Of a stretch of 64,000 nucleotides of DNA, positions 24,101 to 44,018 are shown one piece after another. Below the pieces are notes generated by a model. The model was not told the DNA's origin. It searched no databases and was given only the letters and a program-made list of their open reading frames with translations. The first letter of the stretch is position 1, and each line of letters begins with the position of its first letter. The position numbers and the translations under genes are program-made. Source of the stretch: Bacillota bacterium (GTDB taxonomy: Bacteria; Bacillota; SHA-98; Ch115); the NCBI GenBank assembly GCA_013178415.1, contig JABLXA010000002.1, positions 124,001-188,000 on the forward strand, written 5' to 3'.

Positions 24101-25360
24101 TTGAGAAGACGCCTTGTGAGTGATCGTAAAACTGCATATCTTATGGCCGCAATTGGTCTTCTCGTAACGATTTCCATTATCATATATCCAGAGCCGGCAT
24201 TCAAGGCATCCCTCGATGGCTTAAGGGTATGGTGGGAAATTGTATTTCCAGCCCTCATGCCGTTCTTCATAGCCGCCGAGGTGCTTATGGGGCTTGGGGT
24301 CGTTCACTTCATTGGAGCCCTGCTCGAACCCCTTATGAGACCCCTTTTCGACGTCCCTGGAGTCGGGGCATTTGCCATGGCAATGGGTCTAGCCTCTGGA
24401 TATCCCATCGGAGCCCGTATCGCAGCCAGACTCAGGAGGGAAAACCTCTGCACACAGGTGGAGGCTGAAAGGCTCGTAGCCTTCACCAATACTGCCGATC
24501 CTGTCTTTATGGTCGGAGCCGTGGCTGTAGGCATGTTCCATTCGCCATCACTCGGAGGGATCATTGCAGGCGCTCACTATATATCGAGCATAATAATGGG
24601 TGTGATCATGCGTCTCCACGGACCAAATGTACAGGAACGACCGGCGTTCGTGAGGCCTTCCATGCGGCAGGGCTATTTCAAGAAAGCGTTTGATGATCTC
24701 TATAACGCCCGCAGAGCTGATGGCCGTCCTTTCGGTCAGCTTTTCGGAGATGCGGTGCGAGATTCTGTCACAACGCTCCTTGTAATTGGCGGCTTCATCA
24801 TGATGTTTTCTGTGATCATCCAGGTGCTCACCGCTGCAAATATAATACAAATCGTTTCCAGGCCCGTCGCATGGCTGCTATCGAGCCTTGGGATGAGCCA
24901 GTCTCTGGCCCCGGCCCTCGTGAGCGGCATATTTGAGATAACGATAGGAACTGAATTGGCAAGCCGCGCCGAGTGTGCGATGACACTCAAGGTCATGGCG
25001 GCCTCAGCCATAATCGCGTGGAGCGGACTATCGGTGCTTGCGCAAGTCACGAGCATGACAAATGGTACAGATATTCGTATCAAGCCATATATAATCGCCA
25101 GGGTGCTCCATGCGCTCATCGCGGCCTTGATCACGCTGCTCCTCATGGGGCCTGCGGGGGCAACCATAGGAGGGGTTGTGGTTCCGGCCATCGTCGCCAA
25201 CATCTCTGTACCAAGAATGAATATCCTTGCCAGGATGACATGGTCAAGCGCATACCTTGCCACGACCCTCGGCTACCTATTGATTGCCGCCCTTATCGTA
25301 CAGATAGCCAGGACGGCCAGGATCTTCGGTTTCTGGGTAGTGCAAAAGACCAGGAAATGA
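24101..25360 (+). CDS. ylbJ: Sporulation integral membrane protein YlbJ
   Basis: Polytopic membrane protein required for spore cortex formation in Bacillus; its transport activity is not defined. 419 residues with about nine hydrophobic segments: two at the N-terminus, gate-like motifs MGLASGYPIGARIAARL and FTNTADPVFMVGAVAVGM near 95-150, and a second half with ITIGTELASRAE. These are family hallmarks (nucleoside-transporter-like gate repeats). TTG start, 8 bases after GGAGG. It is the only plus-strand gene in this block; neighbours match the Bacillus ylb cluster. Confidence 0.93.
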   Translation: MRRRLVSDRKTAYLMAAIGLLVTISIIIYPEPAFKASLDGLRVWWEIVFPALMPFFIAAEVLMGLGVVHFIGALLEPLMRPLFDVPGVGAFAMAMGLASGYPIGARIAARLRRENLCTQVEAERLVAFTNTADPVFMVGAVAVGMFHSPSLGGIIAGAHYISSIIMGVIMRLHGPNVQERPAFVRPSMRQGYFKKAFDDLYNARRADGRPFGQLFGDAVRDSVTTLLVIGGFIMMFSVIIQVLTAANIIQIVSRPVAWLLSSLGMSQSLAPALVSGIFEITIGTELASRAECAMTLKVMAASAIIAWSGLSVLAQVTSMTNGTDIRIKPYIIARVLHALIAALITLLLMGPAGATIGGVVVPAIVANISVPRMNILARMTWSSAYLATTLGYLLIAALIVQIARTARIFGFWVVQKTRK

Positions 25361-32331: not shown

Positions 32332-32688
32332 CTACATGATCGCCTGAGTGCCATTATCCAGGGTGGTATTGTCCTCCATGGGTTCTTCTACCAGCGTGTT
32401 GTCTTGGTTCACGCTTTCCTCACGTTTATCCGGAAGCAACTCTGGTATCGTCAATATTCCTGAAATCGCACCCAGGAGAATGAAATTTTCCATCTGTTGT
32501 TTGATTAACCCCATTACCTCATTTTGCAGTACTCGGGTGTCGATTTCTTTCTGACCTGTCGCCTGGAGCTGCTGATTGGCGATCTCCAAGAATGTATCGA
32601 TCAACTGCTGGGCCCTGGGTCTCATAAACGGCCTCAGGGCCGCGATCAGATTGAGTTCATCCTCGGTAATGGTACGAGGCCCTGCCAT
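32332..32688 (-). CDS. Protein of unknown function, third gene of the ybaB operon
   Basis: 118 residues, no recognised family. A helical N-terminal part (MAGPRTITEDELNLIAALRP, then RPRAQQLIDTFLEIANQQLQ) is followed by VMGLIKQQMENFILLGAISG, which is mildly hydrophobic, and an acidic C-terminal tail (EESVNQDNTLVEEPMEDNT). The start at 32688 is 8 bases after GGGGGG and removes an overlap with the gene upstream. Soluble, likely part of a complex with its operon partners. It shares the ALRPF/RELVL type start of the next gene only loosely. Confidence 0.6.
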   Translation of the reverse strand: MAGPRTITEDELNLIAALRPFMRPRAQQLIDTFLEIANQQLQATGQKEIDTRVLQNEVMGLIKQQMENFILLGAISGILTIPELLPDKREESVNQDNTLVEEPMEDNTTLDNGTQAIM

Positions 32689-32717
32689 CTTGCCATCCCC
32701 CCTCGTATCTCTGAGTA

Positions 32718-33317
32718 TCATCCTCTTTTCCACTGCTTGCGCCAGTCTAGGGGACTATCTCGGCTGGCTTCCCTTGCTTCACCAGAATGAGTCTCGGCTT
32801 TTTGCGGACTTTTGGTCTGGTCCCCTTCGGTCGCTGGCTGGGGGCTTTTGGATTGATCCCCTTCAGAGATGGATTTCTCGACGGCGGTTTTCTCGGGAGG
32901 CGATTTCCCAGCCGCAGGCTTGCTCAGGCTGGTGAGTTTCCTCTGCCCCGCGCCCGACATCTGATTTGCCAGCAAACTTGCCATAGTCTGTATCATCGCC
33001 GGCGACACCTTGTCACCCAAACCCAACTGGCCGGCAAGGTTCGAGATGATCGAAATCAGATCTGGCGCCGTACCTTCATGCGACGAGACCATATGAGAAG
33101 TCCCTGGCGCATCCACCGCTTTGTCATCAGCATCATGAGCCAACTCGGGGACACATCCCAGATTGGCGGGACGCCTTGATCTTATGAGATCCACTATCCC
33201 AAGCAGGTTGAGGAGACTCAGCATTTCCAGAAGTTCGTCTCCGGTGAGAGCTGACTGTCCACGGGACAGGACCAACTCCCTCAAAATGGAGAATAGACGA
33301 TAATCATCATCGGCCAT
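32718..33317 (-). CDS. Protein of unknown function, second gene of the ybaB operon
   Basis: 199 residues. An N-terminal helical domain (about 1-50, RLFSILRELVLSRGQSALTG then EMLSLLNLLGIVDLIRSRRP), a second small helical stretch about 85-120 (PDLISIISNLAGQLGLGD), then a Pro/Ser/Lys/Glu-rich tail. Residues 152-174 hold an imperfect tandem repeat of EGDQ(S/T)KSPQ(P/K)A. The end is charged (WRKQWKRG). ATG 9 bases after GGAGG. No family recognised; the tail looks disordered. It lies 21 bases after ybaB. Confidence 0.6.
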   Translation of the reverse strand: MADDDYRLFSILRELVLSRGQSALTGDELLEMLSLLNLLGIVDLIRSRRPANLGCVPELAHDADDKAVDAPGTSHMVSSHEGTAPDLISIISNLAGQLGLGDKVSPAMIQTMASLLANQMSGAGQRKLTSLSKPAAGKSPPEKTAVEKSISEGDQSKSPQPATEGDQTKSPQKAETHSGEAREASRDSPLDWRKQWKRG

Positions 33318-33338
33318 CCCACCTTACCTCCTTGCCAT

Positions 33339-33650
33339 TCATGGGGTCTCATTCGGTGGGCCGCCCATGGCGTTGAATACCTCTGAGACAGCAAGTCCCC
33401 TAGATTTGCCAATGGCCTCATTGATAGCCTGCAATAGAAGTTTGCGAAGCATCGGCAGATTTTCTGAGCTCAGAAGCTTCCCATCGACGACAATGTCGGA
33501 TACCTCACCAAATCCATTTGCAGTGACCTTTACCAGACCACCACCAGCCACACCTTCAACTGTTTTAGCTTTGAGACCGGCTTGAATATCCTGAGCCTTG
33601 CCCTGGATATTTTGCAAGCCATCTAGAAACTTACTGAAGTCCTGCCCCAT
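33339..33650 (-). CDS. ybaB: YbaB/EbfC family nucleoid-associated protein
   Basis: 103-residue DNA-binding dimer family. SKFLDGLQNIQGKAQDIQAGLK, VEGVAGGGLVKVTANG and PMLRKLLLQAINEAIGKSR match the fold (charged helix, three strands, helix). The usual ybaB lies between dnaX and recR; this one heads an operon with two unknown genes and may be a second copy. ATG after GGAGGG; upstream in-frame ATGs extend through the control region and are not used. Confidence 0.8.
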   Translation of the reverse strand: MGQDFSKFLDGLQNIQGKAQDIQAGLKAKTVEGVAGGGLVKVTANGFGEVSDIVVDGKLLSSENLPMLRKLLLQAINEAIGKSRGLAVSEVFNAMGGPPNETP

Positions 33651-33853
33651 AAAGACCCTCCTCTCATGCACATTAAGAGTATATTCAGGTGCCATCGCCT
33701 TAGTTCCAGGATGTTTCATATCCTGCACAACCCAGTAACATTTGAGGATGAACCACCATACTATGTAAGCGAAGGCGAGGTTGCGAGGAATCGTGACCTG
33801 CATAAATGAGCATACATAAACGCCGCTCGATTCTGTAGAAAGGAGGAGACGAT

Positions 33854-33976
33854 ATGAAACCGCTCAATCCCGATTTCTTCTGGCTGATAATAATCATCCT
33901 GTTGTTGTTCTTCTTCTTTTTCTTCCTGGTTCCCCTTGATGTGAAAAAGACTGAGCCTGCTGACGAAAAGGAATAA
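33854..33976 (+). CDS. Small membrane protein, 40 residues
   Basis: MKPLNPDFFWLIIIILLLFF... to PADEKE: one very hydrophobic segment (about 9-27, including a run of Phe) with a charged, mostly acidic C-terminus (DVKKTEPADEKE). AAAGGAGGAG precedes the ATG at good spacing. It is followed 57 bases later by another micropeptide gene. Function not known; such peptides are common in spore formers. Confidence 0.65.
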   Translation: MKPLNPDFFWLIIIILLLFFFFFFLVPLDVKKTEPADEKE

Positions 33977-34033: not shown

Positions 34034-34114
34034 ATGGAAACCAAAGGGATAATCTTCTGGTCCTGGATAATCTGGGTGGCAGTCCTGGTGATCTTGCTTC
34101 TGATAATCTTCTAG
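34034..34114 (+). CDS. Membrane micropeptide, 26 residues
   Basis: METKGIIFWSWIIWVAVLVI followed by LLLIIF: after a short charged start the peptide is one hydrophobic helix with three Trp. AGGAGGAAGG precedes the ATG at good spacing. The strong ribosome-binding site and tandem arrangement with the preceding gene argue against chance. A hairpin follows at 34155-34186. Confidence 0.6.
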   Translation: METKGIIFWSWIIWVAVLVILLLIIF

Positions 34115-43814: not shown

Positions 43815-44018
43815 AAAAACCCCACCGTGCCGTGTCGGCCGACTGTTTATATCCCTGCGCTCTGCAGGTGGGTGCCCTCCCGGCAGCTTTGCGCGTCCAC
43901 TAAGACCCGAGGTGGCATGCGCTCCACTGCCGGAGACCAGGCTCCCGATGTGTCGGTGTTGGAACAAAACTGTCTAGCCCGCTTCGCACACGGTAGGGCA
44001 TTTCATTTCTTTGCTCCG
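43815..44018 (-). ncRNA. ssrS: 6S RNA
   Basis: A ~200-base RNA gene with no ORF, between aspS and tcdA, where the 6S-1 RNA of Bacillus lies. The ends close with CCCTACCGTG (43989-43998) and CACGGTGGGG (43820-43829), ten pairs, directly followed by TTTTT. A terminal arm is closed by CCGGCAG/CTGCCGG (43880-43933), with more stems between, giving the long rod with an internal open region typical of 6S RNA, which imitates an open promoter and binds sigma-A RNA polymerase. A good promoter lies at 44024-44052. Ends are estimated. Confidence 0.85.

Follow-up and report, generated by a model that had tools for sequence, protein, structure and literature searches.

The window (the whole stretch of DNA analysed here, 64,000 nucleotides from a Bacillota bacterium) contains an operon-like run of three genes on the minus strand, with a gene of the YbaB/EbfC family in first position. 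Two tiny hydrophobic open reading frames (ORFs) diverge from it on the plus strand. The features are as follows.

33339..33650, minus strand: YbaB2 (P0001), a YbaB/EbfC-family paralogue and gene 1 of the operon; 103 aa; matches to PF02575 and TIGR00103; orthologues in the genomes G001-G003.
33651..33675, minus strand: ribosome-binding site region of ybaB2 (AGGAGG).
32718..33317, minus strand: P0002 (NLL family); 199 aa; conserved N-terminal LLxxLSLLNLLGI helix, a later [NS]PxxL-type helix, a variable linker that includes an EGDQ repeat, and C-terminal LDWRKQWKRG; no Pfam or NCBIfam family.
32332..32688, minus strand: P0003 (KPF family); 118 aa; motif ALRPFMRPRAQQLID, hydrophobic stretch at about residues 69-82, acidic tail.
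33854..33976, plus strand: divergent tiny hydrophobic ORF 1; 40 aa, starting MKPLNPDFFWLIIIILLLFFFFFFLVPLD...; AAGGAGG site.
34034..34114, plus strand: divergent tiny hydrophobic ORF 2; 26 aa, starting METKGIIFW...

NLL and KPF are names given here to the families of P0002 and P0003, with the signatures LLxxLSLxNLLGIxxFL (N-terminal) and ALKPFLSPKGQxxxD, respectively. The initial annotation had placed a ybaB-type gene and two further ORFs with good ribosome-binding sites at this locus, and we found both the ORF coordinates and the sites (AGGAGG, AAGGAGG and GAGGGGGG for ybaB2, P0002 and P0003, respectively). The intergenic gaps measure 21 bp between ybaB2 and P0002, and 29 bp between P0002 and P0003. 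Identity to G001, a genome of the same family, is 62% for ybaB2, 42% for P0002 and 51% for P0003; the corresponding pN/pS values are 0.25/0.81, 0.37/0.80 and 0.33/0.71. Since pN is far below pS in each case, the three behave as real genes under purifying selection.

The EGDQ repeat and basic end attributed to one protein (P0002), and the acidic tail attributed to the other (P0003), were likewise seen. The repeat consists of units of 11 residues (EGDQSKSPQPA / EGDQTKSPQKA). We rejected it as a functional motif, since it has not been conserved even in the nearest relative, G001, and has the look of a variable linker. All four genomes of the order share the C-terminal LDWR[RK]QWK; G002 and G003 each have two NLL-type proteins and carry it on the second. 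The tiny ORFs recur in the order as well: ORF 1 has a counterpart upstream of ybaB2 in 4/4 genomes, as does ORF 2, which starts with METKG in three of them and with LEPKG in G001.

In the window, the operon sits among housekeeping genes: its neighbours are an Asp23 gene, a FakA-like gene and, as judged by eye, rpmB, recG, galT and glgA. No known germination or spore gene was identified within 5 kb of the operon in the window's own genome, where sleB-ypeB is about 112 kb away. Among the known spore genes identified, the closest is about 7 kb away and encodes the sporulation membrane protein YlbJ (24101-25360, plus strand; TIGR02871, 347 bits, cut-off 304.65).

The assignment of P0001 to the YbaB/EbfC family is clear, with matches to PF02575 (E 2.3e-19, 69.8 bits against a cut-off of 25.5, positions 4-89 of 91) and TIGR00103 (60.1 bits, cut-off 49.45). 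PF02575 membership extends to 16/16 YbaB2 paralogues, and the best solved relative of P0001 is 1ybx (E 5.8e-12), followed by 5yrx, 1j8b, 1pug and 3f42. The gene order dnaX-ybaB-recR is typical of the family but not universal. The possibility raised in the initial annotation of a second ybaB beside recR is realised: an ordinary, better-scoring copy sits in a dnaX-ybaB-recR arrangement on another contig of the genome (G000:C22), whereas P0001 has neither gene nearby and differs from it as a divergent second copy, sharing one operon with the NLL and KPF families.

The same division of copies was observed in 15 paralogue-bearing genomes, hand-chosen across families. Fourteen have exactly two YbaB genes, and the remaining one (G359, 87% complete) shows the paralogue only. 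The ordinary ybaB has recR beside it in 14/14 genomes and dnaX in 13/14, and neither gene was found beside the paralogue in any of the 15. A first scan of genome contig records with P0001 as query returned no relative. The paralogues have longer branches than the ordinary copies and are fast-evolving; a tree of 29 YbaB sequences gives three changes for YbaB2 on long branches, and is compatible with a single origin or with several. The core of the fold is kept (V42 in 15/15 paralogues, L28 in 14/15, N81 and G40 in 13/15 each). Helix 1 is altered: the basic residues K9, K12 and K16, a criterion drawn from the present alignment, are conserved in 5, 2 and 4 of the 15 paralogues, compared to 14, 14 and 13 of the 14 ordinary copies. 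No paralogue in this alignment retains all three lysines, and P0001 keeps K9, with D at position 12 and N at 16. In net charge, paralogues range from -7 to +3 (mean about -1.9) and ordinary copies from -9 to -3 (mean about -4.6), so that the paralogues are on average less acidic.

The other two proteins fall in no described family among those searched, in agreement with the initial annotation, which had left them unassigned. Neither 27 KPF members nor 21 NLL members gave a credible match in Pfam or NCBIfam (best E over the two sets 0.0068 or weaker). A sequence search of the PDB yielded titin as the best match for KPF (E 0.049) and no match for NLL. The AlphaFold2 models of P0003 (pLDDT 66.3) and P0002 (pLDDT 60.7) are mostly helical and of low confidence, and Foldseek with the P0003 model found no PDB fold at E <= 0.001. 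Profile comparison indicated no relation between KPF and NLL (probability 7%). By eye, an NPxxL-type helix is present in both.

Aiming to place the gene set in the phylum, we searched 398 genomes. KPF was found in 22 with a profile built from the four genomes of the order and in 71 with the 27-member profile, and a whole-genome profile search found NLL in 89; conservation among spore formers, which the initial annotation suggested checking for the operon, thus holds for the gene set. The two families coincide in 47/398 genomes, compared to 15.9 expected if they were independent, and one or the other is present in 113/398, more than a quarter. Both are nearly confined to genomes with Spo0A (PF08769; 345/398 genomes), which is present in 70/71 KPF genomes and 86/89 NLL genomes (Fisher p 0.0002 and 0.0005, respectively, values that overstate the strength of the association because the genomes are related). 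The exceptions are G290 (61% complete) for both families, and G061 (90%) and G089 (84%) for NLL. At the present sensitivity, 235/345 Spo0A genomes have neither family, among them the 12 genomes of family f3, from the window's own class. The module may be missing from B. subtilis. From this comparative genomics, which gives strong support, the KPF/NLL/YbaB2 gene set is very likely linked to spores.

The neighbourhood of the module loci provides a closer view of this link. We counted seven spore genes (SleB, YpeB, SpoVT, GerA, GerB, GerC and PdaB-like) within a radius of 5 kb for the 90 genomes, out of 113 positive ones, whose loci were retrieved and matched, the Pfam identity of these neighbours being tested on a single example per gene. 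One or more of the seven were present in 44/90 genomes and none in 46/90. The cortex-lytic pair SleB-YpeB (PF07486, PF14620) is the most frequent tested neighbour, with both genes found together in 34/90 genomes from 10 families. SpoVT follows (6/90, at KPF-only loci), then GerA/GerB/GerC (2/90) and the PdaB-like gene (2/90), which is Polysacc_deac_1 by Pfam. In the commonest layout, ypeB-sleB is divergent from KPF-(YbaB2)-NLL. All 14 titled contig records (from Thermosediminibacter, Fervidicola, Thermovorax, Tepidanaerobacter and metagenome-assembled genomes) have sleB-ypeB divergent beside KPF-NLL, in a search whose query was built from sleB-linked members and in which at least seven of the 14 belong to genomes that had already entered the count. 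In two genomes of the window's order, G002 and G003, gerA-gerB-gerC (PF03323, PF03845, PF05504) follows the operon on the same strand.

Within the module, 41/70 NLL genomes have YbaB2 no more than 1.5 kb from NLL and always on its strand, and in 29/70 it is absent nearby; G281 carries an additional NLL on the opposite strand. Neither recR nor dnaX was found at the YbaB2-NLL loci of the 41 genomes. Early linkage counts were partly circular, as loci identified through KPF had supplied the first NLL and YbaB2 profiles; the whole-genome NLL search, unrestricted by place, recovered the same loci again, together with YbaB2-NLL pairs without KPF.

KPF and NLL match no Pfam family, hence they are neither SleB nor YpeB, and the literature searched does not describe them as belonging to the SleB-YpeB system. 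No sequence relation to the Ger receptors was found. Among the matches listed for open-licence PMC searches on YbaB/EbfC, sporulation, germination and sleB/ypeB topics, no paper on the ybaB2-NLL-KPF set was found by title or abstract start. A trypsin-like protein was also observed near sleB and within 5 kb of the module in 28/90 genomes (e.g., L041:5204-6226, with Trypsin_2 at E 1e-4, below the cut-off). In a spore study of Moorella thermoacetica (PMC8745062), the genes listed as spore-related include sleB, ypeB and one for a protein of chymotrypsin type, which fits the neighbourhood of the module; its main text contains none of the terms YbaB, EbfC and nucleoid.

Many loci also encode tiny membrane segments. 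We counted ORFs that have a ribosome-binding site and encode a FLILxLL-type run within 1.5 kb of module loci, and found them at 45/95 loci, compared to 0/14 ordinary ybaB loci and 1/67 distant stretches of the same loci. Among the 45, the run forms a separate tiny ORF in 34 and is fused to a module protein in 16, five loci having both; L160 has one further fused case outside these classes. The window is left out of the 45, because its ORF 1 and ORF 2 miss the strict pattern. The fusions suggest that KPF acts at a membrane. In being very short, with one hydrophobic run and a link to spore genes, these segments resemble the YjcZ-type tiny membrane proteins of spore formers. Of ten tiny or fused members tested, none came close to a curated cut-off in Pfam or NCBIfam. 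A promoter consensus scan of 48 upstream regions, compared to simple letter shuffles, gave no excess of SigG, SigF or SigA sites and a slight excess of SigE-type sites (17 versus 9.6 expected; uncorrected p 0.02 in four tests on related sequences), which would, if real, point to expression in the mother cell.

A spare ybaB and two unnamed families that recur in spore formers, often beside genes for waking the spore, probably act in sporulation or spore germination as a component not described before. Tentatively, we read them as a spore module that would be located at a spore membrane, linked to the cortex or to germination, and organized around YbaB2 as a dimeric hub. The operon of the window would then be the order-specific version of a widespread module, presumably expressed in the developing spore. 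YbaB2 would derive from a duplicated YbaB that retained the core of the fold, gave up most of the basic residues of helix 1, and now serves as a hub to which the helical NLL and KPF proteins bind. KPF may anchor the assembly at a spore membrane, most probably the inner membrane, either with its C-terminal hydrophobic segment or by way of the adjacent tiny membrane proteins, and the assembly may help to position or retain the cortex or the germination apparatus (SleB/YpeB, Ger receptors). Weighing against this reading are the housekeeping setting of the window copy, the outcome of the promoter scan, the 29/70 NLL genomes that lack YbaB2 near NLL, the 46/90 genomes with none of the seven spore genes close by, the 235 Spo0A genomes with neither family, the confinement of SpoVT neighbours to KPF-only loci and the low confidence of the P0002 and P0003 models. 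A more specific version is somewhat doubtful: that KPF, NLL, the repurposed YbaB and the FLILILLL mini-proteins make up a new inner-spore-membrane assembly, present whole or in parts in 113/398 genomes, by which the interior of the spore is coupled to the cortex-lytic and germinant-receptor apparatus. The parts of the germination machinery are poorly known in spore formers outside Bacillus, and two nameless families whose gene order ties them to sleB-ypeB, ger operons and spoVT lend themselves directly to deletion tests. The module may also offer a case of a nucleoid-associated protein fold that was duplicated and then turned to another use.

The initial annotation had proposed that the three proteins could form a complex with DNA. 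Accordingly, YbaB2 could be a spore-specific nucleoid-associated protein, with NLL and KPF modulating its packing of the spore chromosome, a role we consider rather unlikely. The link to spore formers, the family match of all 16 paralogues, their lower average acidity and the basic tail of NLL in the window's order would all suit it. According to a study on Borrelia EbfC (PMC2720974), it is as dimers that YbaB/EbfC proteins bind DNA, and helices 1 and 3 differ naturally between orthologues; yet, in the same study, some substitutions in one or other of these helices of EbfC abolish binding to DNA while dimerisation is unaffected. Because the basic helix-1 residues are mostly lost, and with the lower acidity set against this, DNA binding by YbaB2 appears doubtful from its sequence. 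YbaB2 is moreover absent near NLL in many genomes, and the association with membrane segments, together with the neighbouring genes, points to the spore membrane and the cortex.

It is unlikely that the module is an assembly factor for the coat or other outer layers, with KPF, NLL and the tiny proteins as structural components made in the mother cell. The slight SigE-type excess and the variable linkers are consistent with such an assembly factor, and a SipL/SPOCS-LysM protein is encoded near NLL in L160 (PF12673, E 1.7e-21), and proteins that look similar by eye accompany the module in L103, L113, L157, L174 and L177 (L177 was tested and is below the cut-off). The commonest tested neighbours are, however, SleB-YpeB, followed by SpoVT and the Ger genes, which have forespore or inner-membrane functions in B. 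subtilis.

Finally, a non-spore small-protein chaperone or envelope-stress set that lies near spore genes by chance, and owes its Spo0A link to shared ancestry in the phylum, would account for the KPF-type proteins near groES-groEL in four genomes, the S8 protease gene nearby in nine (at two NLL loci and at seven KPF loci, of which two are groEL loci), the housekeeping surroundings of the window copy and an association that is modest, given the high frequency of Spo0A and the non-independence of the genomes, but is quite improbable in view of the adjacency to sleB-ypeB in 34 genomes of 10 families, compared to about 0.4 genome by a simple length ratio (a rough estimate), and of the separate contexts with gerABC, spoVT and PdaB-like genes.

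Several KPF loci have particular arrangements. KPF-type proteins are encoded upstream of or divergent from groES-groEL in L091, L092, L112 and L114, and a subtilase gene lies beside them in L090, L093-L095 and L099 (PF00082, E 1.3e-64 for L094); these subtilases weakly resemble the germination Csp proteases, far below the cut-offs of the latter. Where weak KPF matches stand apart from NLL, beside groESL, spoVT or the S8 protease gene, the KPF domain may be all that is shared. One lineage has three KPF genes in a row before YbaB2-NLL (L041, L042 and L046), and in another two KPF domains are apparently fused in one protein (L050, L053 and L054). A MurF-like protein is encoded within 5 kb of the module in 7/90 genomes; this Mur ligase gene is directly downstream of KPF in L048, L088, L089, L108, L124, L162 and L181 (Pfam tested for L048), and is perhaps a paralogue for a spore-wall ligase. 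A search of the window's genome for 16S rRNA gave no match. In the window itself, the sole Rfam match at the gathering threshold is a 6S RNA (RF00013, 96.4 bits) at 43815-44002 on the minus strand.
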